From a virus: a stretch of 22,402 bases of DNA. The translations under genes were made by a program, and so were the position numbers. The notes beneath the pieces are model-generated. The model was given only the letters and a program-made list of their open reading frames with translations, was not told the DNA's origin and searched no databases. The stretch is taken from the IMG/VR virus record IMGVR_UViG_3300030061_002792, positions 1 to 22,402 of that record; one strand, written 5' to 3'. Shown one piece after another: positions 46 to 21,421 of this stretch. The stretch's first letter is position 1, and each line of letters opens with the position of its first letter.

Positions 46-1104
46 GTGGCAAATAGACTTGTTAGTAAAATTATGATGAATGATGTGAAAGATCTGGTTG
101 GTAAGGTCTCACAATCCAATCATTATCTTGTAAGTTTTTCAGCATTAAATCCTCAGATAACAGAACATTTAGGTGGATATCTTGGAATAAGAGATCCAAT
201 TAATTTTTTATCAAGAAAGAGTGGTCTTCTTTGTTCTGACGCTGTATTACCAACTACATCATATGCCACTGGTGAAGTAAAGGATAACTTCATGGGTATT
301 CCTCAAGAATTTGCACATACTCGTTTATATACTGATATTGATTTTTCTTTCTACATTGATACTGATTATACCAATCTAAGAATTTTTGAGGGTTGGATGG
401 ATTTTATTTCAAGTGGTTCTCTTAGTGAGATTGGTGAATTAACTGATAATTATTACAAGAGATATAGATATCCTGATGAATACAAAGTTCAAACTATGTT
501 TATCTCAAAGTTTGAAAAGAGTATAAGTTCTCAGATAGATTATCAGTTTATTAATGCTTTCCCTAAGACCATGACTACGATTCCAGTATCATATGGGGAT
601 GCTGAATTATTAAAAGTTAATGTTACTTTTAATTATGATCGTTATGTCGTAAATCCTCAAGGAAGTTATACTGCTTCTAATTTAAGTTCATTTACAGATA
701 TAGAACGTCGTGGTCGTAATCTGTTTACAACATATGAGTCAATATATGATAGAATATCTTCATATGCATCTGGGAGCAGAAACGTGGAATATGATCGAAA
801 ACGGAATGAAGAAATAAAAGCAATTATGGCTGATTATGGTATGTCTGAAAGCGATGCAAAGACTATAGCGGAGGGTGGTTTTGTAGAAACTGTTTTTGAC
901 GGTGGTAATGGTAATGCAACTGGTGGTCGAACTCCACCAATATTAAATAGAACAACTGGGGATCCTGGTGAAAGAACAGCACCAACATTAAATAGAGGTG
1001 GGGATAATAAAATTGGTTCCGATCCAACTAAAGATCATCGACTTGGTGAAGATAGTAAGGGAAAATATAGAATCAATAGTCGTGGTAGAAAAGTTTATTA
1101 TTAA
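46..1104 (+). CDS. Baseplate/tail-tube junction protein, gp48/gp54-like
   Basis: This 352-residue protein is probably part of the baseplate-tail tube junction, where T4 gp48 and gp54 cap the hub and nucleate the gp19 tube. The recognisable part is roughly residues 80-205. A strand ending in FSFYIDTDY is followed by the LRIFEGWMDFIS helix, and later INAFPKTMTTIPVSYGDAEL leads into KVNVTFNYDRYVV, the typical tail-tube fold ending. Residues from about 285 on are a low-complexity Gly/Asn/Thr/Arg-rich tail with a repeated PP/AP-x-LNR motif (TPPILNR, APTLNR). It starts at GTG, with AAGG at 34-37 as a plausible ribosome site. The next gene is a gp26-like hub gene, which fits a baseplate position. 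I cannot decide between gp48 and gp54, and a gp19 paralogue is less likely given the length. Confidence 0.7.
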   Translation: MANRLVSKIMMNDVKDLVGKVSQSNHYLVSFSALNPQITEHLGGYLGIRDPINFLSRKSGLLCSDAVLPTTSYATGEVKDNFMGIPQEFAHTRLYTDIDFSFYIDTDYTNLRIFEGWMDFISSGSLSEIGELTDNYYKRYRYPDEYKVQTMFISKFEKSISSQIDYQFINAFPKTMTTIPVSYGDAELLKVNVTFNYDRYVVNPQGSYTASNLSSFTDIERRGRNLFTTYESIYDRISSYASGSRNVEYDRKRNEEIKAIMADYGMSESDAKTIAEGGFVETVFDGGNGNATGGRTPPILNRTTGDPGERTAPTLNRGGDNKIGSDPTKDHRLGEDSKGKYRINSRGRKVYY

Positions 1105-1140: not shown

Positions 1141-1869
1141 ATGCCTTTACCAAAAATTAATACTCCCACCCATGAGTTGGTATTACCTTCTAATGGAAAG
1201 AAAATTAAATATCGTCCTTTTCTAGTAAGAGAAGAGAAGATATTAGTTATGGCAATGGAGTCTGAGGACATGAAGCAGGTTACAACTGCCATTGTCGATA
1301 TATTGAATAATTGTATTCTTACGAGAGGTGTGAAGGTCGAAAAACTCTCTACATTTGATATTGAATATTTGTTCTTGAATGTTCGTTCTAAATCAGTTGG
1401 TGAAACTGTAGAAGTGAATGTGACTTGTCCTGATGATGGAGAGACACAGGTTCAGATGGAAATTGATATTGATTCTATTAAAGTTAAGAAAGATAAAAAT
1501 CATACAAATATTATTAAACTTGATGATCATCTTTCAATGAAATTGAAGTATCCATCATTGAATGAATTTATTGAAAATAATTTTGATGCTTCTAGTAATA
1601 GTGGTAAAAGTGAAGTTGCCCAATCTTTAGATATGATTACTTCATGTATTGATATAATATACAATGAAGAAGAAAGTTGGAGTTCTTCTGATTCTACTAA
1701 GAAAGAAATGTCAGAATTTATTGAACAGTTGAATACAAAACAATTTAAGGAAGTAGAAAAATTCTTTACAACAATGCCCAAACTTTCTCATAAGTTTAAG
1801 GTAAAAAATCCAAAGACAGAAGTAGAATCTGAAGTTGTATTGGAGGGACTAGCAAGTTTTTTCAGTTAG
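1141..1869 (+). CDS. 26: Baseplate hub assembly protein, gp26-like
   Basis: This 242-residue protein resembles the T4-type gp26 baseplate hub family, which is needed to assemble the central hub in the infected cell. The N-terminus (PTHELVLPSNGKKIKYRPF) and the segment FDIEYLFLNVRSKSVGETVE, followed by a CPDDGET loop, are characteristic of this family in marine T4-like phages. The C-terminal half is acidic and helical. The last codons are GCA AGT TTT TTC AGT TAG, so the gene ends on a T TTT TTC slippery heptamer (1857-1863). A -1 slip would bypass the TAG and continue into the next small ORF. The position immediately before the tape-measure candidates matches that of the tail-assembly chaperones of long-tailed phages. 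Family assignment is fairly secure; the exact biochemical role is not. Confidence 0.8.
   Translation: MPLPKINTPTHELVLPSNGKKIKYRPFLVREEKILVMAMESEDMKQVTTAIVDILNNCILTRGVKVEKLSTFDIEYLFLNVRSKSVGETVEVNVTCPDDGETQVQMEIDIDSIKVKKDKNHTNIIKLDDHLSMKLKYPSLNEFIENNFDASSNSGKSEVAQSLDMITSCIDIIYNEEESWSSSDSTKKEMSEFIEQLNTKQFKEVEKFFTTMPKLSHKFKVKNPKTEVESEVVLEGLASFFS
1857..1863 (+). promoter_or_regulatory. Candidate -1 programmed ribosomal frameshift site
   Basis: The heptamer T TTT TTC is in the correct X XXY YYZ phase relative to the gp26-like frame (codons TTT 1858-1860 and TTC 1861-1863). After a -1 slip the next codons are CAG TTA GGT ATG, entering the frame of the ORF at 1872. The product would be about 303 residues. 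The zero-frame stop TAG follows one codon after the heptamer. I did not find a strong stem-loop directly downstream by eye. The lambda G/GT precedent is established for tail chaperones; its operation here is inference. Confidence 0.55.
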
Positions 1870-1871
1870 GT

Positions 1872-2051
1872 ATGGCTCATACAGACCTTGAGTCATACTA
1901 TAAAGTAAACTTTGCCTTGATGCAACACCATAAATACTCATTAACAGAGCTAGAAAACATGATTCCGTGGGAAAGAGAAGTTTATGTTTCTCTACTCCAA
2001 CAATATATTGAAGAAGAAAATCTAAAACAACAGCAACAACAAAGTGGCTAA
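1872..2051 (+). CDS. Small hub/tail-assembly ORF, likely frameshift extension
   Basis: This is a 59-residue ORF beginning MAHTDLESYYKVNFALMQ, with ELENMIPWEREVYVSLLQQY in the middle and a QQQQQ tail. The WEREVYVSLL segment resembles the short W-E-R/D helix seen in the C-terminal extensions of tail-assembly chaperones; that resemblance is my reading and not a database match. It lies in the -1 frame of the gp26-like gene, starts 2 nt after that gene's TAG, and overlaps the next gene by 8 nt. No Shine-Dalgarno precedes its ATG. It could be made as a -1 frameshift extension of the gp26-like protein, by reinitiation after TAG, or both. Its position also matches gene 51-like hub assembly factors. 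Hydrophilic and helical, with no membrane segment. Confidence 0.65.
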   Translation: MAHTDLESYYKVNFALMQHHKYSLTELENMIPWEREVYVSLLQQYIEEENLKQQQQQSG

Positions 2052-3231
2052 CGTAACAAGTTCAGGAAATACAACTATTAAACCCACAATAAGTGCTGCA
2101 AAATTTATGGGTGCATCTCATGCAGCTGGAAGTTCTTTAGAAAACCAAATTCAGACTATTAGGAATTTGGTTTTTGATAATATGATGGGTATTAGTTCTA
2201 TTAAAAGTGTTATTAGTTCTATTGAAAGTGTTTTAGATAGTGAAACTCTTAAAGTTTCTAATTTAGAATCAAAAGTCGGTAGTCATGAGAAAGCATTAGA
2301 AGAAACAAATAGCATTTTAACAGATATTGGTAATGCACTTGCATTAGATTTTGCTAATCGTATTGCAGCAGCTAAAGATGATATTAGTAATATAAAGGAA
2401 CAAAAATCCAGAGGAAAATTTGGTAGAGCAGAGGATAGAGTAGAAGGTAAAGGAAAGAGAGCAGGAAATATATTTACACAAACTGCATCTAAAGCAGCAT
2501 CTCCTGTACAAGGATTATTTGGTAAAATATTATCATTTATTGGATTAATAGGTACTGGAATGGGACTTAATTTTGCGTCTAAGTGGTTACAAAATCCTGC
2601 AAATATGAAGAAATTAGTAAAAGTTGGTGAATTCATTACAAATAATTGGAAATTAATAGCAGGAGTTATTGTAGGAGGAGGATTGTTAATAGGACTTGGA
2701 GGTATATTAGGAACACTTTTTAGTGTTTTTGCTATACTCACAAATCCAATATTTCTTACACTTTTGGGACTTGGTGCTGTTTTAGGTGGTGGAGCACTTT
2801 TATTAAATCGAAATAAATCTGACGGACCTAAGAAAGAGATTGTTCCAATGGGAAAAAATAAGGATTTTGGATATAAACAGAGTAATTGGAATGCTGGTGA
2901 CTTTGCTAATGAGTATCTGTTAGGAATACCACCTGGAGGTAAACTTGATAAAGATATACCAAAGATGCGTAATGGTGGAATTGTAGATGGTCCGAAGAGT
3001 GGATATCCTGCTATACTTCATGGTAGAGAAATGGTTATCCCTTTAGAAAAACTTTCCCAAAATCCAAGAAGACAACCTAAAATTACAACAATAACTATGC
3101 CACCAATTGTAAAAGGAAGTGTTCCGAAAGGAGAATCTAATGTAGCAACTGCAGTTCCAAATATTCCATCAGCAAATCCTACTGATCCTTATAGACAATT
3201 GACTCCAAATATTTACGGAATATACGTGTAA
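2044..3231 (+). CDS. Probable tail tape-measure/hub protein
   Basis: This 395-residue protein starts at GTG inside the end of the preceding small ORF, with no clear ribosome site, so translational coupling is likely. Residues about 30-125 are predicted helical and coiled-coil. Residues about 155-180 and about 204-256 are strongly hydrophobic, giving two or three membrane-like segments. Around residues 308-337 there is RNGGIVDGPKSGYPAILHGR followed by EMVIPLEKL, a glycine-containing motif common near the C-termini of tape-measure proteins. Helix plus hydrophobic segments plus this motif, straight after a tail-assembly chaperone-like pair, argue for a tape-measure role. It is much shorter than T4 gp29 (590 residues), so the next gene may share the role. 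No sequence-level gp29 match can be claimed. Confidence 0.6.
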   Translation: MANVTSSGNTTIKPTISAAKFMGASHAAGSSLENQIQTIRNLVFDNMMGISSIKSVISSIESVLDSETLKVSNLESKVGSHEKALEETNSILTDIGNALALDFANRIAAAKDDISNIKEQKSRGKFGRAEDRVEGKGKRAGNIFTQTASKAASPVQGLFGKILSFIGLIGTGMGLNFASKWLQNPANMKKLVKVGEFITNNWKLIAGVIVGGGLLIGLGGILGTLFSVFAILTNPIFLTLLGLGAVLGGGALLLNRNKSDGPKKEIVPMGKNKDFGYKQSNWNAGDFANEYLLGIPPGGKLDKDIPKMRNGGIVDGPKSGYPAILHGREMVIPLEKLSQNPRRQPKITTITMPPIVKGSVPKGESNVATAVPNIPSANPTDPYRQLTPNIYGIYV

Positions 3232-4326: not shown

Positions 4327-5619
4327 ATGGTAAAAGCATTATCAGGATCAAATTATGAGATACTTAGTATTACTAAGGGTGATAAGGAAATAAATTTACA
4401 GGGTAAAACTACCTCATTCGATTATTATGAGAGTGTTTTATCTCCAAATGTAACTGCAAATTTAACAGTTAAAGATGGTGGGAATGCTGTAAAGTATGAT
4501 AAGAAATTTGATAGACAAGAGAGGGTAGGTTCAATTTATAATGCCCTTCCAATTACTGGTGGTGAGGAAATAGGATTTAAAATAAAAAATTCTTTAGGAG
4601 TTCTTGATTTCTCTAGGAATCCATTAATGGTAAATGGTGCAAGTAATATGGCACATGATGATATGACAAATAATATTTTAATTAATTTAGTTTCTCCATT
4701 ATCAAAGTTAAATCAAGATTCAGTAGTTTATAAAAAATATGATGGTAATATTGGAGATAACGTCAAGAAGATTATAAAAGAATATTTGAAGGTAAATGAT
4801 AATAAAATGACAATTGATGATGTTGTTAATTCTTATTCTTTTATTGGTAATAGCGATTCTGTTTTTGATGTAATTTGTTGGTTAGCAGCAAAATCTATTT
4901 CAGTATTAAATGGTGTTGGATTCTTCTTTTATGAGACACAAGATGGTTTAAATTACAGAGGAATTGAGAATTTAATAGATCAAGATGCGACAGCATTTTA
5001 TTATAAGACAAGTGCTGTCAGAAAGAATATTGATAATAATGCTAATGATTATAAAATTTTATCTTCTTCAATAGAAAAGAATCAAAATATAATTAATGCC
5101 ATGAAATCTGGTACATATCATACTCGTTCTATATTTTTCAATCCTAAATATTTTGATCTTGAAGAAACATTCTCAAGATTTGGTAAAGATAGGCAATTAA
5201 CACCATCAAAAATTTTAGGTAAAGAAGTAGAAGAACCCGAAATAAGTGCTGGTGAAGATAAATTTAATAGAACTCTTTATGATATCCTAGATCTAGGAGC
5301 ATACAATCCTACTGTTGCTGGTGAAGATAATAATGATCCTACACAATGGCAAACACAATCTACAGCAAGATATAATATATTATTCAGTCAAAAATTAAAA
5401 TTACAAGTTCCTTGCAATCCTAACTTAAAAGCTGGTGATGTTATTGCTTGTGATTTTCCTATTGTTACTGAAGATTCTAAAGATCAAGGAGCAAATGATC
5501 CAGTACAGAGTGGAAGGTATTTAATCGTTGATTTATGCCATCACTTTGATCCTACTAGATCTATTACTTCAATGACTTTGGTTCGTGATTCTTATGGGGT
5601 ATATACTAAAAAACAATGA
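4327..5619 (+). CDS. 27: Baseplate central hub protein, gp27-like
   Basis: This 430-residue protein resembles the T4-type gp27 hub protein, whose trimer forms the torus between tail tube and puncturing device. The N-terminus (NYEILSITKGDKEINLQGKT, then FDYYESVLSPNVTANLTV) matches the tube-like beta domain shared by gp27 and VgrG-type hubs. GFFFYETQDGLNYRGIENLI around residues 198-217 is a typical hub element, and the C-terminus returns to beta structure (GDVIACDFPIV, then RYLIVDLCHHFDPTRS). The ATG directly follows the preceding TAA, with a GGGGTGG tract upstream as a possible ribosome site. It overlaps the gp5-like gene as ATGA, as expected for two proteins that assemble with each other. The assignment is good by motif and neighbourhood. 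Confidence 0.8.
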   Translation: MVKALSGSNYEILSITKGDKEINLQGKTTSFDYYESVLSPNVTANLTVKDGGNAVKYDKKFDRQERVGSIYNALPITGGEEIGFKIKNSLGVLDFSRNPLMVNGASNMAHDDMTNNILINLVSPLSKLNQDSVVYKKYDGNIGDNVKKIIKEYLKVNDNKMTIDDVVNSYSFIGNSDSVFDVICWLAAKSISVLNGVGFFFYETQDGLNYRGIENLIDQDATAFYYKTSAVRKNIDNNANDYKILSSSIEKNQNIINAMKSGTYHTRSIFFNPKYFDLEETFSRFGKDRQLTPSKILGKEVEEPEISAGEDKFNRTLYDILDLGAYNPTVAGEDNNDPTQWQTQSTARYNILFSQKLKLQVPCNPNLKAGDVIACDFPIVTEDSKDQGANDPVQSGRYLIVDLCHHFDPTRSITSMTLVRDSYGVYTKKQ

Positions 5620-6146
5620 AAAATAATTTAGGTACAATTGGTAAATATAAATGGTTCTTGGCACAAGTTGTTACAGATCAGAATCAAGTAGTTAAAGATG
5701 ATTGGGAATATCCTAATACGTGGGGAGAACGTGTAAAAATAAGAATACCTGGAATGCATCCACAAAGTAGCAGTGAAGTTGATGGTAATAATTTACCATG
5801 GGCAATTGTTGCTAAACCAACTACATGTGGTAGTAAGAATACTATGACTGCTGGTGTATGGGGAGGTGAATGGGTAATTGGATTCTTTTTAGATGAAGGT
5901 GAACAACAACCTGTTATTACTCATGTTCTAGGTAATAATCTTCATAATCACGAAGTAAGTGCATCTAGTGGTTTTAAAAGGATTAATAGATTTAATTCTG
6001 GTATGAAGCCAGGTACACATCAAATAGGAAAAGGTAGTGCACCAGAGACACCAGCAGAACCTAATAAAGATGAATTTAAAAATTTAGATTCTAAAGTAGA
6101 TACTGAAAATAAAAGCGAACAATTAGAATCTAAAACAAAGGTATAA
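5616..6146 (+). CDS. 5: Minimal gp5-like baseplate hub OB-fold protein
   Basis: This 176-residue protein matches the N-terminal OB-fold domain of gp5/VgrG-type hub proteins, which sits under the gp27 trimer. Evidence is the opening KYKWFLAQVV, WGERVKIRIPGMHP with LPWAIV (residues about 40-68), and the GVWGGEWVIGFFLDEGEQQP strand pair near residues 84-105, followed by VITHVLGN. Residues from about 120 are a charged low-complexity tail. There is no lysozyme domain and no C-terminal beta-helix, both of which T4 gp5 (575 residues) carries. The ATGA overlap with the gp27-like gene supports a gp27-gp5 pair. The beta-helical function may be supplied by the gene at 8222. Confidence 0.75.
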   Translation: MKNNLGTIGKYKWFLAQVVTDQNQVVKDDWEYPNTWGERVKIRIPGMHPQSSSEVDGNNLPWAIVAKPTTCGSKNTMTAGVWGGEWVIGFFLDEGEQQPVITHVLGNNLHNHEVSASSGFKRINRFNSGMKPGTHQIGKGSAPETPAEPNKDEFKNLDSKVDTENKSEQLESKTKV

Positions 6147-10680: not shown

Positions 10681-10869
10681 ATGGACGATATTGTAAATCG
10701 CACGATTATTGATGTGTGTACTAGATCTTTTTTAATTATTTCTGATGGTGGAGAAGAGAGGATGATAACATGTGAAACTACAGAACAATTCATGGATGTG
10801 ATGGAAGTCGTAAATAAATTACTAGATCCAGAAAGAATAGAATATTCTAATCTTAGTGTTAAGAAATAA
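10681..10869 (+). CDS. Small hypothetical protein
   Basis: This 62-residue protein is acidic, with no recognised domain. The sequence alternates short strands and a helix (IDVCTRSFLIISDGGEER, then TTEQFMDVMEVVNKLLD), compatible with a small alpha/beta fold; two cysteines are present. It is the first gene after the consensus sigma70 promoter, and its TAA overlaps the ATG of the nucleotidyltransferase by one base, so the two are probably co-expressed. There is no good ribosome site, and the mRNA leader would be very short. A regulatory or accessory role to the enzyme is possible but unsupported. It is likely a real gene because of the promoter and the exact junction. Confidence 0.6.
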   Translation: MDDIVNRTIIDVCTRSFLIISDGGEERMITCETTEQFMDVMEVVNKLLDPERIEYSNLSVKK

Positions 10870-11327
10870 TGTTTTTTGAAAAAGTTAGTCTTGTAACTGG
10901 AGGATATGATCCACTTCATAGTGGTCATATATCTAATTTTAAGAGAGCAAAAGATCTATCTAATTATCTTATCGTAGGAATCAACACTGAAGAGTGGTTG
11001 ACACGTAAAAAAGGACAATACTTTCAGTCTTGGAAAGAACGTGCTGAGATTATTCGACATTTAAATATGGTTGATGCTGTTATATCATGGGATGATATTG
11101 ACAATTCTGCTTGCGGTGCTATTAAAAAGTGTTTAGAGATATCAGAGAGGGTAATATTTTGTAATGGTGGTGATAGAATTAAGAGTAATATTCCAGAAAT
11201 TGAAAGGTATGGAGATGATCCTAGAGTAGAATTTAAATTTTCTATTGGTGGTGAAGATAAGATGAATAGTAGTTCTTGGATACTGCATGGATATTTTGAA
11301 CGTCAAAGAAAACTTCTGGGTATATAA
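10869..11327 (+). CDS. Cytidylyltransferase-like nucleotidyltransferase
   Basis: This 152-residue enzyme belongs to the HxGH nucleotidyltransferase superfamily (TagD / RfaE-C type), which joins a nucleotide to a phosphorylated alcohol or sugar with release of pyrophosphate. Evidence: TGGYDPLHSGHI with H17 and H20 as the HxGH motif, the LIVGINTEEWLTRKKG strand-loop (34-49), WKERAEII (55-62), NGGDR (99-103) and a C-terminal NSSSWIL (133-139) in place of the ISTT/ISSS signature. The length is typical for a single-domain enzyme. It lies in a tail-gene block but has its own sigma70 promoter upstream and a late box downstream. The substrate cannot be deduced; a CDP-alcohol or an NDP-sugar precursor are the options. 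It might supply a modification of cell surface or virion glycans, which is inference. Confidence 0.85.
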   Translation: MFFEKVSLVTGGYDPLHSGHISNFKRAKDLSNYLIVGINTEEWLTRKKGQYFQSWKERAEIIRHLNMVDAVISWDDIDNSACGAIKKCLEISERVIFCNGGDRIKSNIPEIERYGDDPRVEFKFSIGGEDKMNSSSWILHGYFERQRKLLGI

Positions 11328-11386: not shown

Positions 11387-14300
11387 ATGCCTCTGAATAA
11401 ATTAGATAATTTTATTAAGAATACTGAAGGCCGTATTCTTTATGTAAGTCCAAGCGATTTAGACTCAACAGATAGTGTTAGTAATCAGGGTAACTCTCTT
11501 ACTCAACCTTTTAAGACTCTCCAGAGAGCACTTATTGAGTCTGCGAGATTTTCTTATCTTAAAGGAAATAGTAATGATATTGTAGAAAAAACTACAATTC
11601 TTTTGATGCCTGGCGAGCATATTGTTGATAATAGACCTGGATTTGCAGTTAAGAATGATGGTGGAATAGCAAAAGCAATTTCTCCTGGTGGTGGAGAATC
11701 TGCTGCTAGTGATACGTTAACACTTCAGTTAAATTCCAATTTTGATTTAGAACAAGAAGATAATATCCTTTATAAATTCAATAGTGTTAATGGTGGTGTT
11801 GTTGTACCTAGAGGAACATCTATTGTTGGACTAGATTTAAGAAAGACTAAAATAAAACCTAAGTATGTTCCTAATCCTACTGATCCTTCCGTAGCTAATT
11901 CTGCTATATTCAGAATTACTGGTGCTTGTTATTTCTGGCAATTCTCTATTTTTGATGGGGATGATAGTGGATTGGTATATACAGATCCTACAGATTTTTC
12001 AGCAGGTAATAGGGTAATACCATTATTTTCTCACCACAAATTAACAGTATTTGAATATGCTGATGGTGTTAATAATGTAAATGATTATGATCTTACCGAT
12101 CTTGATATGTATTATGCTAAATTATCTAATGCATATAATGTTGCATCTGGTAGAAATATTGATGATAAGTATCCTGCCGACCCAGAAGGGTTTGAGAAAC
12201 AACGACCAGAATGGGAAATTGTTGGTGCATTTGCTTCTGATCCTATCTTATTAGAGTCTATTGAATCTGGTAGTGGTGGAACTCCTAGTACTATAGTTAC
12301 AGTTACAACTAAAGAAAATCATAATTTAACAGCAGGAACACCAATTAAGATTGAGAATGTTTCTCCACAGGAATATAATCTCTCTACTAAAGTTCAGAGT
12401 GTATCTATAGATAATCCAAAAGTATTCACATATTTACTTCCATCTTTTTCTAAAAATTTAGTTACTCCAGCATCTGTTAATACTTTTGAAGGAAAAGCAC
12501 AAGTAACTATTGAGACTGATACGGTATCAGGTGCATCACCATATATCTTTAACTGTTCTCTACGTTCAGTTTATGGTATGAATGGAATGTGGGCTGATGG
12601 TAGTAAAGCATCTGGTTTCAAATCAATGGTTGTTGCCCAGTTTACGGGTATATCTCTACAAAAAGATGATCGTTCATTTGTAAAGTATAATAGTTCTAAT
12701 AGAAATTATGTAGGACTTGATGAAACTAAGGTTACAGGATCAACTCTTTCTAATAATTCAGCATCGAGAAATTCAGCAACAGTATATCACTTAGATTCTG
12801 GAGCAGTCTATAGACAAGGATGGGAAACTACACATATTAAAATTACCGATGATGCTATTCTTCAGATAGTTTCTGTATTTGCGATTGGATATAATAAGCA
12901 TTTTGCCGCAGAAAGTGGTGGTGATGCATCTATAACAAACTCTAACTCCAACTTCGGACAATTATCTTTAATATCTGATGGATTTAAGAAAGAATCATTT
13001 TCAAAAGATAATAAGGCATTTATTACAAACATAGTTGCACCAAAAGCAATTACCAGTGATGAGGAAAATATTGATTGGTTATCTGTAGATGTTGGTGTAA
13101 CCACTTCTGTTTCTAATAATAAGAGATTATATCTCTATGGATATTCTGATGTTGATATTGTTCCACCTATTCTTACACAAGGATATAGAGTAGGTGCTAA
13201 AGTTCATGATAAAGTATATGTAGATTTTAGTGCTGTTACTGGATATGCTACAAGTGAAGCAAAGATCTTAATGACAGATAATTCTAGTAGTAGTTTTAAA
13301 GAATATCCAGTATTATCAGGTCCAACATCAAATAGATTTTCTCTTAATTCTCATAATTTATCAACAGGTGAGAAGATTATTGTAATTAGTGATGATGGAG
13401 ATTATCCAGAAAATATTAAAGGAGAAACTGTTTATTATGTTATTGATGAAGGTGATGATAATCATATAAGATTAGCTTCTTCTAAAACAGACGCAGATAA
13501 TTATACTAACCTTGGTAGTGGTGATATTACTGCCTATGGTGGAACTAAACTTAAGATTATAAGTAGAATAAGTGATAAAATTGCTGGAGATATAGGACAT
13601 CCAGTACAATTTGATGATACATCTACAGTTAAACAGTGGTATATTACTACAAATACTGGTAATGATGTTTACAATGCTTTAACACAAATTGGTGTTAAAA
13701 CGGATTCTGGTTTAGATGCTTTTACCGAACCTTCTTTTATAAAAAGAAAGGCAGATTCTAGAAGTTTAGATGACAAAATCTTTAAACTTAGAGTTGTAAT
13801 TCCTCAACAATTAACTAATTCTAAGAATCCTGAAAGTGGATTTATTATTCAGGAATCAAGCACTACTGGTGTTAGGACTGATGGTGATTTTTCTACCAGC
13901 ACTATCTCAGCAACTGATTATGAATATAATAGGAATCCAAGATTCATTAGTACATGTTCATTCACATCAGGTTCTCCTACTTCAACAATAAGTGTTACAT
14001 CAGAACTACCACATAATTTGAATGTTGGAGATCAAATTATTGTTAAGAATGTAACTGACTCAACCAATCCAGTTGGAACAGCTAGCAGTGGTTATAATGG
14101 AACTTATACTGTTGATACAGTTACCAATGATATGCAATTTACTTATGAGACCACTAAAACACTTGGGTCTTCATTAACAAATAATACATCTTCAAGAACA
14201 ACTGATTTACCAAGATTTGAGAGAAATGATTTACAATCTAATCTTTATGTTTATAGAAATGAAACAATTCAAAATTATGTAAGTGGTCAACAGGATGGTA

Positions 14301-17146
14301 TATATCATCTTTACACACTATCAGCTGATGTAGGTGTTGCCACAGAATTTACAAATCTAAAATATAGTCAGAATGTTGTTGATTTATATCCTCAATTAGA
14401 CAGAGATAATATTGATGATAATCCAGAATCTGCAGAATCTTATGCATTAAGATCTCCTCTAGGGGAAGTTGCGACAAGTAATCTCAAGAAGAGTATTACT
14501 AAATCATCAACTAATAACTTAATTAAAACATTTAATAATAAATTTACTGTAGCAAATGAAAGCACTTTAAGTGCAGTCGCAGGTATAGCAACTCTTACAT
14601 TTACAAGAGAGCATGGATTATCTGGTATTGCAACTTATACTGGTTCTATTACAGGTGGATCTGGACATACAAATGGAACATTCTATAATGTAAAACTCTT
14701 TAATGAAGTTGGATTATCTAGTTGGAATGGTGCGACTGCTACTGTTGGTGTATCTGGTGGAGCAGTTGTTAGTGTAGACATTCAATCTGCTGGTTCTGGA
14801 TATCAAAGTGGTGCTACATTATACTTAGATACAGCAGTTATTGGTGGAAGTGCCAATGCTACAATAACAATTGATAATACTGGTTTAACTGGTTCAATTA
14901 TATCTACTGGTGCTGGAGTTTTAGATAATGGTGGATCTATTCAAGTCACTGGTATTGGAACAACTACTACAGGATATTATAGGTTACTTTCTATTCCTGC
15001 TAAGAATCAAATTGCCATAGCAAAAACAGCAGGAGATCCAATTAGTGTATCTGGACAATATGTTCTTCCTACTGGTGGTGTTGGTATTGTTACATCTAAC
15101 AGTTATGATTCAGCAACAGGTATTACCAATGTTGTATGTTCCTATGCTCATGGATTAGTATCTGGAAATAGACTTAGATTCACTGATAGTAATAATAATC
15201 AAATTGGAGATTATCTAGTAAAATCAAGGGTAGGTGTTAATACATTTACTGTTGTTACTAATGCATCAATATCACCAAAGTATATTATTAAACATGGTTT
15301 ATCTGCTAATGATGGAATATCTGATAAGACTGAAGAGAATATTGCTGCACGTGGAGTTTCATTATATGATAATGAAATAATTACATTTGAAGGATTCCCA
15401 GATCCAACTGATAATACTAAGATTCAGATAAGTTCTCCTACTAAGAGTATAGGATTAACTAAGAGATTACCTGTAGGTTCTTACTTACAAATTGATAATG
15501 AGATAATGAGAATTGCGAGTGATACTTTAACTGGAGTTGGTAATAGTCAGATTACAGTATTACGTGGTGTATTAGGAACAGGAGTTCAAACTCACGATGC
15601 TGGTTCATTTGCTCAAAAAGTAAAACCACTTTCTATTGAGTTCCGTAGACCTTCTATTCTACGTGCTTCTGGACATACATTTGAATATCTTGGATATGGT
15701 CCAGGTAACTATTCAACTGGTCTTCCACAAGTTCAGGTTAAATCTCTGACAGAAAGAGAAGAGTTCTTATCACAATCACAAGAAAGAGGTGCTGGTGCTG
15801 TTGTCTACACTGGTATGAATAACAGAGGTGACTTCTTCATTGGTAATAAGAGAGTTACTTCTTCTACTGGTGAAGAAACAACATTCGATGCACCAACACC
15901 AACAGTTACTGGTCAAGATCCAGCAAGATTGAGTGTTGTATTTGATGAAGTTACTATTAAAGAACGTCTTACTGTTGAAGGTGGTGATTCTAAACAATTA
16001 CTTACACAGTTTGATGGTCCAGTTACATTTAACAATGAAATTGTTACTAAACAAAAAACTACTTTCAAGAAATCAGTAAAGATCAATGATACTACAGATT
16101 CTACTACAGCAACTACTGGAGCACTTGTTGTTAAAGGTGGTGTAGGAATTGGTGCTAATCTGACTGTAGATGGCACTACATTACTAAAAGGAAATGTTGA
16201 TTTAGGTGATGCTGCTACTGATACAGTATCATTTGTTGCTGACGTTGATACTACTATACTTCCATCCACTGATGGAACTTTAGATCTTGGAGCTTCTGGT
16301 AGTAAATGGGGTAACATCTATGGAGTTTTAGCATCTCTTACAGATATTACAGTCTCAGGTGGTGCTAATATAACTGGTGTTGTGACTGCAACATCTTTCG
16401 CTGGTGATGGTTCAGCATTAACAAATATCACCCAGACAACAATAAACAATAATGCAGACAATAGAATCATCACTGGTTCTGGAACAGCAAATACATTAAA
16501 TGGCGAATCTACATTAACCTATGATGGAACTAATCTAGATTTGGGTGATGATAAACTCATAAGATTGGGTGATTCTCAGGATCTTATTATCAAACATGAT
16601 GGTGATAATTCTATTATAAGAGAAACTGGAACTGGAGGACTGTATTTACAAAGTGAAGGTAATGTCTTTATTACTAAAGAATCAGGTAATGCCAATGATT
16701 TAGTTGCTGATTTTAATGCTACAGGAGGTGTATCACTTTACTTTAATACTGCATCAGCAGCAAGTGCTTCGAAGAAATTTGAAACCACTGCGGCTGGTAT
16801 AACAGTTCAGGGTGAAGGTAGATTTGTAGGTGGTGATTTGATTGCCTTTGCATCTTCTGACAAGAGATTGAAAGATAATATTAAACCTATTGAAGATCCT
16901 CTTGCTAAGATTCTTTCGATTAGTGGTAATACATTTGATTGGAATTCAGCATCTGGTAAAGAAGGAAGTGATACTGGTGTTATTGCACAAGAGGTAGATG
17001 CACTTAATCTTCCTGGTATTACAACTATCAGAGATGATGGAACGTATGCTGTTAGGTATGAAAGATTGGTTCCTGTATTGATTGAGGCAATTAAAGAATT
17101 GTCTGCGAAGGTTGATAACCTTGAACAAAAATTATCAGATAAATAA
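11387..17146 (+). CDS. Giant tail fibre with C-terminal S74 autoprocessing chaperone
   Basis: This 1919-residue protein is probably a long tail fibre. The N-terminus has ILYVSPSDLDSTDS and LTQPFKTLQRALIESARFSY (residues about 18-57), a start seen in marine T4-like fibre proteins and suggestive of a pectate-lyase-like beta-helix. The middle holds several HxL repeat modules with a following G and I-V strand (residues about 307, 652, 871, 1252), the FCCH-like type found in phage tail proteins. Residues from about 1530 contain trimeric fibre repeats and a GDGSALTNI element. The end is a peptidase S74 intramolecular chaperone: SDKRLKDNI with S1824 and K1829 as the Ser-Lys pair, GVIAQEVDAL, YERLVPVLIEAIKEL and a terminal coiled coil. 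Self-cleavage before S1824 would release about 96 residues after trimerisation. A late box lies upstream. Confidence 0.85.
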   Translation: MPLNKLDNFIKNTEGRILYVSPSDLDSTDSVSNQGNSLTQPFKTLQRALIESARFSYLKGNSNDIVEKTTILLMPGEHIVDNRPGFAVKNDGGIAKAISPGGGESAASDTLTLQLNSNFDLEQEDNILYKFNSVNGGVVVPRGTSIVGLDLRKTKIKPKYVPNPTDPSVANSAIFRITGACYFWQFSIFDGDDSGLVYTDPTDFSAGNRVIPLFSHHKLTVFEYADGVNNVNDYDLTDLDMYYAKLSNAYNVASGRNIDDKYPADPEGFEKQRPEWEIVGAFASDPILLESIESGSGGTPSTIVTVTTKENHNLTAGTPIKIENVSPQEYNLSTKVQSVSIDNPKVFTYLLPSFSKNLVTPASVNTFEGKAQVTIETDTVSGASPYIFNCSLRSVYGMNGMWADGSKASGFKSMVVAQFTGISLQKDDRSFVKYNSSNRNYVGLDETKVTGSTLSNNSASRNSATVYHLDSGAVYRQGWETTHIKITDDAILQIVSVFAIGYNKHFAAESGGDASITNSNSNFGQLSLISDGFKKESFSKDNKAFITNIVAPKAITSDEENIDWLSVDVGVTTSVSNNKRLYLYGYSDVDIVPPILTQGYRVGAKVHDKVYVDFSAVTGYATSEAKILMTDNSSSSFKEYPVLSGPTSNRFSLNSHNLSTGEKIIVISDDGDYPENIKGETVYYVIDEGDDNHIRLASSKTDADNYTNLGSGDITAYGGTKLKIISRISDKIAGDIGHPVQFDDTSTVKQWYITTNTGNDVYNALTQIGVKTDSGLDAFTEPSFIKRKADSRSLDDKIFKLRVVIPQQLTNSKNPESGFIIQESSTTGVRTDGDFSTSTISATDYEYNRNPRFISTCSFTSGSPTSTISVTSELPHNLNVGDQIIVKNVTDSTNPVGTASSGYNGTYTVDTVTNDMQFTYETTKTLGSSLTNNTSSRTTDLPRFERNDLQSNLYVYRNETIQNYVSGQQDGIYHLYTLSADVGVATEFTNLKYSQNVVDLYPQLDRDNIDDNPESAESYALRSPLGEVATSNLKKSITKSSTNNLIKTFNNKFTVANESTLSAVAGIATLTFTREHGLSGIATYTGSITGGSGHTNGTFYNVKLFNEVGLSSWNGATATVGVSGGAVVSVDIQSAGSGYQSGATLYLDTAVIGGSANATITIDNTGLTGSIISTGAGVLDNGGSIQVTGIGTTTTGYYRLLSIPAKNQIAIAKTAGDPISVSGQYVLPTGGVGIVTSNSYDSATGITNVVCSYAHGLVSGNRLRFTDSNNNQIGDYLVKSRVGVNTFTVVTNASISPKYIIKHGLSANDGISDKTEENIAARGVSLYDNEIITFEGFPDPTDNTKIQISSPTKSIGLTKRLPVGSYLQIDNEIMRIASDTLTGVGNSQITVLRGVLGTGVQTHDAGSFAQKVKPLSIEFRRPSILRASGHTFEYLGYGPGNYSTGLPQVQVKSLTEREEFLSQSQERGAGAVVYTGMNNRGDFFIGNKRVTSSTGEETTFDAPTPTVTGQDPARLSVVFDEVTIKERLTVEGGDSKQLLTQFDGPVTFNNEIVTKQKTTFKKSVKINDTTDSTTATTGALVVKGGVGIGANLTVDGTTLLKGNVDLGDAATDTVSFVADVDTTILPSTDGTLDLGASGSKWGNIYGVLASLTDITVSGGANITGVVTATSFAGDGSALTNITQTTINNNADNRIITGSGTANTLNGESTLTYDGTNLDLGDDKLIRLGDSQDLIIKHDGDNSIIRETGTGGLYLQSEGNVFITKESGNANDLVADFNATGGVSLYFNTASAASASKKFETTAAGITVQGEGRFVGGDLIAFASSDKRLKDNIKPIEDPLAKILSISGNTFDWNSASGKEGSDTGVIAQEVDALNLPGITTIRDDGTYAVRYERLVPVLIEAIKELSAKVDNLEQKLSDK
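17138..17145 (+). promoter_or_regulatory. Possible late box GATAAATA
   Basis: GATAAATA overlaps the end of the giant fibre gene, 16 nt before the next ATG. It differs from the T4 consensus only at the first base, but coding overlap and short spacing make this weak. It may allow separate late expression of the second fibre gene. Confidence 0.25.
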
Positions 17147-20177: not shown

Positions 20178-20759
20178 ATGAATGATAATTTTATTATAAG
20201 ATATAAGGGTGCTTTCTCACGAGAAGATTGCGATACGATAATTAAACATATCGAGAATTACGAAGATAATAATTTATTATATTATCAAGAAGAAAATCGT
20301 CATCTACAAGATCATAAGACAATTAGTATTAATAATAGTTATGAAGTAGATTTACCTGCATCAGCAATAATCTCACGTCTTATACTTCCAAAATTTAAAC
20401 CTTGTGTTGATGACTATGTTAAAAGGTTTAGTTTATTAGAACAAAGTAAATTTACAATTTATGATTTAAAATTAAAAAAGATTCCTCAGGGTGGAGGATT
20501 TCATGCTTGGCATTATGAGAATGGTTCAATGATATCTTCATCGAGAATGTTTGTCATTCAAGTATATCTAAATGATGAATTTGATGGAGGAGAAACAGAA
20601 TTTTTATATCAAAATATAAGAGAAGAATCTGTTACTGGTGATGTAGTTATTTGGCCTGCTGGTTTTACTCATGTTCATCGAGGTAATCCACCAATAGGAG
20701 GGTCAAAATATATTGCTAATTCTTGGGCAATAGTACAAGATAATGGAGGCTATGAGTGA
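20178..20759 (+). CDS. 2-oxoglutarate/Fe(II)-dependent oxygenase
   Basis: This 193-residue protein fits the prolyl-4-hydroxylase-like 2OG-Fe(II) family common in cyanophages; such enzymes hydroxylate protein or small-molecule substrates using 2-oxoglutarate and O2. GGGFHAWHYENG carries the first metal ligands, read as H112-Y-E114, an HxE form instead of HxD. FDGGETEFLYQ follows, then ITHVHRG-type sequence FTHVHRGNPPIGGSKY with H167 as the distal ligand and K177 as the likely 2-oxoglutarate anchor. It ends with GSKYIANSW. The length is normal for a single double-stranded beta-helix domain. It has its own leader with a possible promoter, and its stop overlaps the start of a second oxygenase (TGATG), so the two are co-translated. 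The substrate is unknown. Confidence 0.8.
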   Translation: MNDNFIIRYKGAFSREDCDTIIKHIENYEDNNLLYYQEENRHLQDHKTISINNSYEVDLPASAIISRLILPKFKPCVDDYVKRFSLLEQSKFTIYDLKLKKIPQGGGFHAWHYENGSMISSSRMFVIQVYLNDEFDGGETEFLYQNIREESVTGDVVIWPAGFTHVHRGNPPIGGSKYIANSWAIVQDNGGYE

Positions 20760-21421
20760 TGGAAGAATTAGTTTGTAATAATTATGATACACCATTCCCC
20801 CATATGATTATTAAGAACTTTTTTAATGAGGAGGAACTAGAACTTATATGGGAAGAACTTAAGTTCTATACCCATCCTGGTAAATTGTTGAAAGCAGAAA
20901 ACTTTGGTGGTATCGTAGGTTATACTAATTCAAGTGCTATTATCTTAGATCAGATATATCGTAATTATTCAAAAGTAACTAATGAAACTATTAATGGAAA
21001 TCCAAACTTTCGTCCAATATCAAATATTCTGACTCTGAATAGAAAACTATTTGAGTCTGGTGTATTAGATGCTCTTGCTGATGTGCATGATTCTGTAAGT
21101 TTAGTGAATCAATCAAATTGGGATAGTGTAAAGGTAAGATATTATCATAATGGAGAATATTATGATGCACATACTGATAAAGCAATGCAATTCCTAGCAT
21201 TTTATTATATTAATAAAGAACCTAAGAAATATACAGGTGGAGAAGTATATTTTCCTAAGTATGACTATGAGTATGGATGTGATAGTAATTCAATTATAGT
21301 ATTTCCAGGTTGGGTAAAACATGGTGTTAAAAAGGTGAGTATTGATGATTCTGATTACTATGATGGTTATGGAAGATATGCCATTACAACTTTCTTTGGT
21401 AGTAAAGCAAGTGATATGTAA
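20759..21421 (+). CDS. Second 2-oxoglutarate/Fe(II)-dependent oxygenase
   Basis: This 220-residue protein has the canonical HxD...H triad: YYDAHTDKAM with H138 and D140, WVKHGV with H188, and YGRYAITTFFG with R206 as the probable 2-oxoglutarate-binding residue. A conserved GGEVYFP lies between them. The N-terminus (MIIKNFFNEEELELIWEELK) is the usual helical start of phage 2OG oxygenases. ATG 20759 overlaps the preceding TGA and has GGAGG at 20745-20749; GTG 20756 one codon earlier is equally possible. It is divergent from the adjacent oxygenase, so the pair is not a recent duplication. A terminator follows about 85 nt after the stop, closing the unit. The substrate is unknown; proximity to a Gly/Pro-containing adhesin is suggestive only. 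Confidence 0.8.
   Translation: MEELVCNNYDTPFPHMIIKNFFNEEELELIWEELKFYTHPGKLLKAENFGGIVGYTNSSAIILDQIYRNYSKVTNETINGNPNFRPISNILTLNRKLFESGVLDALADVHDSVSLVNQSNWDSVKVRYYHNGEYYDAHTDKAMQFLAFYYINKEPKKYTGGEVYFPKYDYEYGCDSNSIIVFPGWVKHGVKKVSIDDSDYYDGYGRYAITTFFGSKASDM

Follow-up and report, generated by a model that had tools for sequence, protein, structure and literature searches.

In phage lambda, a short tail-assembly chaperone (gpG) is accompanied by a -1 long form (gpGT), and the slip sequence, G GGA AAG, lies close to where the first gene ends. Frameshifting is reportedly conserved in several T4-like groups as well. The tail assembly chaperones of T4-like phages have been assigned to gp26 and gp51 (Vladimirov, Gautam, Davidson, Virology 2022, 566:9-15, as cited in PMC10885494 and PMC12846349), and poly-T frameshift signals in some T4-like TAC-N genes are described in PMC12846349. 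The principle of a frameshifted T4-like chaperone, as represented in these citing papers, was already published in 2022 and is not a new idea; the preliminary description of the present locus, which took frameshifting not to be an accepted feature of T4-like gp26, was mistaken in this respect. The SD elements that stimulate -1 frameshifting sit 9-14 nt upstream of the slip site, and U-run heptamers, when tested in E. coli, shift less readily than A AAA AAG (PMC5009743); the host here may differ.

The window, meaning the whole stretch of DNA analysed, is a 22,402-nt virus record (IMGVR_UViG_3300030061_002792), and the features of the locus are listed in Table 1. The short form matched PF12322 with an E-value of 3.9e-72 over residues 9-241 (Pfam), the gp26-like gene matched phrog_150 with an E-value of 8e-79 (PHROGs), and the gp26 identity of the first ORF is solid. 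The gene ends in GAG GGA CTA GCA AGT TTT TTC AGT TAG, and the -1 frame from position 1863 reads CAG TTA GGT ATG GCT and is open to 2051. The preliminary description had placed a phased T TTT TTC one codon before the TAG and, through CAG TTA GGT, a fusion of about 303 residues; the heptamer lies exactly where it was placed (1857-1863) and the computed fusion is 303 aa. The predicted junction peptide of the fusion includes GLASFFQLGMAHTDLESYYK, and a free 59-aa protein would begin MAHTD. The small ORF matched phrog_634, 'baseplate hub assembly catalyst' (the gp51 family), with an E-value of 1e-29, and also positions 239-278 of phrog_150, the end of the gp26 profile; fused proteins therefore exist in the phrog_150 family. 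The extension overlaps the gene that follows it by 8 nt.

Table 1. Features of the gp26-like locus in the window.
Feature	Coordinates	Strand	Evidence
Upstream tail-tube-family gene	46..1104	+	phrog_45 E 2e-32, PF23849 E 2e-18
gp26-like gene encoding the 242-aa short chaperone (TAC-N)	1141..1869	+	PF12322, phrog_150, T4 gp26 hhalign
SD-like GGAGG within the gp26-like gene, putative 5' stimulator	1842..1846	+	anti-SD pairing, spacing
Slippery heptamer T TTT TTC, phase X XXY YYZ	1857..1863	+	sequence, conservation
Post-slip extension, gp51-like C-terminal domain (TAC-C), 62 -1-frame codons + stop	1863..2051	+	phrog_634, phrog_150
Zero-frame stop TAG of the short form	1867..1869	+	sequence
11-bp hairpin, putative 3' stimulator, holds ATG 1872	1869..1899	+	folding, shuffles
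Extension as apparent free-standing 59-aa ORF, ATG 1872-1874	1872..2051	+	ORF list
Next gene, candidate tape measure	2044..3231	+	position + composition, phrog_305

The small ORF and the gp26-like gene are very probably a single gene for tail-assembly chaperones, organised like lambda G/GT and read through with a -1 frameshift. From the observed anatomy, conservation, T4 gp26/gp51 homology and chaperone-like fold we infer the slippage itself, its rate, its stimulation and the protein contacts as follows. Most ribosomes would end at TAG 1867 and yield the 242-aa TAC-N. A minority, placed by the internal SD-like GGAGG and slowed by the hairpin, would slip by -1 on T TTT TTC, where the tRNA-Phe on TTT and TTC would re-pair with TTT and TTT. 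These ribosomes would go on to read CAG TTA GGT in the -1 frame and yield a 303-aa TAC-NC. If lambda is a guide, the short and long forms would together make up a mixed coat that holds the tape measure and brings in the tail-tube protein. The proposal that the gp26 family and its small neighbour are functional counterparts of lambda G and GT is supported; the accompanying statement that the extension binds the tape measure does not hold, since the tape measure of lambda is bound by the G part.

The relatives were taken from IMG/VR records and named phages and comprised 337 gp26 ORFs (185 non-redundant genes), which are not independent samples. An in-phase T TTT TTN was present in 336 of the 337 gp26 genes, reaching relatives of approximately 25-30% protein identity, with T TTT TTC in 312, T TTT TTT/A/G in 24, and no T6 in one (Vibrio phage K397). 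Among the non-redundant genes, 184 of 185 had an in-phase T6 at most 40 nt from the stop; T6 runs within the body of the gp26 gene were mainly in another phase. The constraint extended to the codons. The first Phe codon of the heptamer was TTT in 184/184, compared with 66% TTT overall, and the second was TTC in 171/178 and otherwise TTT, which is also slippery; other conserved Phe columns in the same alignment, with the same ancestry, mixed TTT and TTC (93% at best, then 87%, 67% and 63%). The codon before the Phe pair had T as its third base in 184/184 (63% expected) while encoding Ser, Asp, Asn, Ala, Gly, Thr or His, and the zero-frame stop varied among TAG, TAA and TGA. Except in S-SCSM1, the -1 frame of every relative read stayed open for 40 codons or more, or as far as the sequence went, and was scored as open so far where a relative's sequence ended first. 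By count alone, TTTTTTC was not significant in the window (6 copies, 9.4 expected); the heptamer is beyond chance in place, phase and conservation, not in count. No Rfam family was matched at the junction. The comparison across relatives, which had been proposed as a check on the frameshift, thus came out in its favour in heptamer, codon usage and open frame alike.

Two relatives depart from this pattern. In S-SCSM1 (record L085, 2715-2745) the heptamer is present, and an insertion of approximately 11 nt after the stop closes the -1 frame and introduces an ATG. The sole full-identity match was this phage's own RefSeq record, and the insertion either reflects an error in the sequence or marks a phage that has truly escaped frameshifting. 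In Vibrio phage K397 (record L096, 2565-2752) there is no T6, gp26 ends in AAGTAATGG, and the downstream ORF starts in a TAATG overlap, which suggests that this Vibrio group may have switched to translational coupling. A broken heptamer together with a small ORF having its own start had been named beforehand as counter-evidence to frameshifting; it is approached only in K397, far outside the lineage of the window.

The SD-like GGAGG ends 10 nt upstream of the heptamer, within the 9-14 nt rule, and most relatives had a spacing of 8-10 nt. Across the family, anti-SD pairing peaked at the GGAGG site and exceeded that of all 200 synonymous shuffle sets, with a mean pairing energy of -6.5 versus -5.1 (sd 0.13) in the shuffles. 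The conserved Glu codon at this site was GAG in 73%, compared with 35% among all Glu codons. The element is likely a 5' stimulator of slippage.

Folding of the region 3' of the heptamer, also suggested in the preliminary description, gave a hairpin at 1869-1899 that pairs 1869-1879 with 1889-1899 (11 bp, 9-nt loop) and begins 5 nt after the heptamer. It had a z-score of -3.2 and was matched by 0 of 200 shuffles; relative to synonymous recoding of the -1 frame the z-score was -5.5. The hairpin was retained in the clade of the window, with a compensatory pair in one relative (L079), and its geometry was not found in other clades; for this reason the hairpin tests were run clade by clade and against synonymous null sets. 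The mean MFE at the site in 182 relatives was -8.5 kcal/mol, compared with -3.8 kcal/mol on synonymous recoding, and a control region 60 nt further on showed no excess stability (z -0.1). Different hairpins were found in the same place in other clades, including P-HM1 (GCCCTC/GAGGGC), S-H34 and SH-Ab 15599. In the S-SM2 clade, compensatory changes were observed at 5/5 stem pairs, and 85% of cells were paired versus at most 81% in the shuffles. As some clades (L038, L089 and L169) had no hairpin by MFE, the structure is not universal. Where present, it is likely a 3' stimulator of slippage.

The extension could instead be made alone, as a 59-aa protein, by translational coupling, with ribosomes terminating at TAG 1867 and reinitiating at ATG 1872, which starts 2 nt past the stop. 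We consider this very unlikely. The conserved core of the extension (L-x-x-Y-Y-x-x-N-F) was preceded by no ATG in 52/183 relatives, and by no ATG, GTG or TTG in at least 41/183. Reinitiation therefore cannot be general, and frameshifting is the only evident route to the extension in those relatives, among which the -1 frame was open in all but S-SCSM1. Records of relatives do annotate gp51 as a separate gene, as reinitiation would have it, but the annotated start lies 92 nt (P-SSM7) or 50 nt (Syn19) past the gp26 stop, inside the domain. Terminating 30S subunits might be retained by an SD-like element ahead of the stop, as discussed in PMC5009743, and K397 has the TAATG overlap and no heptamer; however, an SD-like tetramer at initiation distance was present in only 15/130 ATG-bearing relatives. 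In the window, ATG 1872 has no SD at initiation distance and is buried in the hairpin stem. Reinitiation furthermore leaves the invariant in-phase heptamer unexplained. Public annotations cut the gp51-like domain short (P-SSM7 and Syn19) or omit it (Ah1) for lack of a proper start codon (records L089, 2801-2896; L087, 2765-2902; L094, 2714-2884).

Slippage of RNA polymerase on the T6, so that part of the mRNA would join the gp26 and small-ORF frames, is extremely unlikely. Transcriptional slippage can also be promoted by a T-run followed by a hairpin, but the T6 run is short for it. Moreover, the run stands in one phase in all relatives but K397 and follows a T-ending codon, which points to the ribosome, as both are needed by tandem slippage and not by transcriptional slippage; an SD-like element 10 nt upstream would likewise be meaningful only to a ribosome. 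Ribosomal -1 frameshifting is the reading we retain in what follows.

An AlphaFold2 model of the gp26-like protein had a pLDDT of 89. The top PDB matches of model residues 1-88 by VIA-align were 3fgx (an uncharacterised protein, Z 7.9), 2ob9 (the HK97 tail assembly chaperone, Z 7.8) and 3klu (YqbN, Z 7.1), all below the safe-match limit of Z 8, and the next match had Z 2.5. Two of these three are tail assembly chaperones, YqbN as a member of the XkdN-like family. Foldseek against the PDB gave no significant match (E approximately 1), with the HK97 chaperone among the best rows, and a PDB sequence search gave no meaningful match for gp26. The model thus gives moderate support to a resemblance between the gp26 N-domain fold and the HK97 tail assembly chaperone. 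The gp26-like gene is flanked upstream by the tail-tube-family gene and downstream by a gene that the preliminary description called tape-measure-like. A weak match of the latter to phrog_305 (E 0.005) is in keeping with this, but hhalign of ORF3 and ORF4 against T4 gp29, gp28 and gp27 gave no match, including to gp29; the gene may be a tape measure, to which its position and composition weakly point.

Further along the window, positions 5616-6146 encode a gp5-like protein of 176 aa; its OB domain scored close to the Pfam cut-off, and it appears to lack the parts that make up the lysozyme and the needle in T4 gp5. A cytidylyltransferase-like gene (PF01467, E 1e-9) lies amid structural genes at 10869-11327. 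A 1919-aa fibre-like protein (11387-17146) has the C-terminus DKRLKDNIKPI..., which reads like a self-cleaving intramolecular chaperone domain. Two adjoining 2OG-Fe(II) oxygenase genes (PF13640) with a 4-nt overlap are present at 20178-21421.

The T4 proteins belong to the same families. PF12322 takes in T4 gp26 from end to end and, in T4 gp51, residues 1-201; T4 gp51 spans the whole phrog_150 profile. By hhalign, T4 gp26 aligned with the short form (E 1e-20), and T4 gp51 followed the fusion colinearly through the slip point (E 1e-14), the extension corresponding to the gp51 C-terminus. The long form thus consists of a PF12322 domain and a gp51-type C-terminal segment (phrog_634, phrog_150, hhalign), and T4 gp51 resembles a long form in which the two parts are permanently joined. 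T4 gp26 (TAC-N) and gp51 (TAC-NC) are made from separate genes, whereas the window would make both forms from one gene and a -1 shift. There was no T6 at the gp26 end in ten T4-type phages (T4 and nine others) with a separate gp51 or equivalent, in which Phe-Phe was mostly retained and usually encoded by TTC TTT. The absence of T6 where gp51 is separate is the expected negative control, and it agrees with the conclusion for which Vladimirov et al. 2022 are cited. A broader reading, to which we give even chances, is that the marine T4-like chaperone frameshift is driven by a conserved SD, T TTT TTC and a hairpin, that the hairpin also masks the start of the extension, which would then never arise as a protein of its own, and that lineages with a separate long form, such as T4, silenced the slip site synonymously.

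Comparative evidence gives good support to the locus as a genuine programmed -1 frameshift in the tail-assembly chaperone of a T4-like marine phage. The locus shares with lambda the short chaperone, the -1 long form and the position of the slip site; it differs in the slip sequence, in belonging to a myovirus rather than a siphovirus, and in having a recognisable upstream SD and downstream hairpin, and the two are likened by organisation. The layout also resembles that of E. coli dnaX, in which an internal SD lies approximately 10 nt upstream of the heptamer and a stem-loop a few nt downstream, compared with 10 nt and a 5-nt spacer here. The dnaX gene is unrelated, and its slip site, A AAA AAG, has a much higher efficiency in E. 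coli. The TAC locus of Vandenendeviridae/Andersonviridae (Pseudomonas phage Adele, PMC12846349) has, like the window, a conserved -1 frame and a T-rich slip motif, GTTTTT, at the TAC-N end, in a different phage family; an SD or hairpin analysis was not found in the accessible text of that paper. To the known account we add the three-part signal and its phylogenetic tests, and the signal is better defined here than in the descriptions found in the literature, as far as their accessible text goes. The free 'gp51' or 'hypothetical protein' in many cyanophage and T4-like records is very probably not a separate gene, and the start chosen for an annotated gp51 is sometimes inside the domain. Annotation as a fusion would put a name to the tail chaperones of viruses that are abundant in the ocean, and would link T4 gp26 and gp51, long referred to as hub proteins or catalysts, with the chaperone system found in other long-tailed phages.
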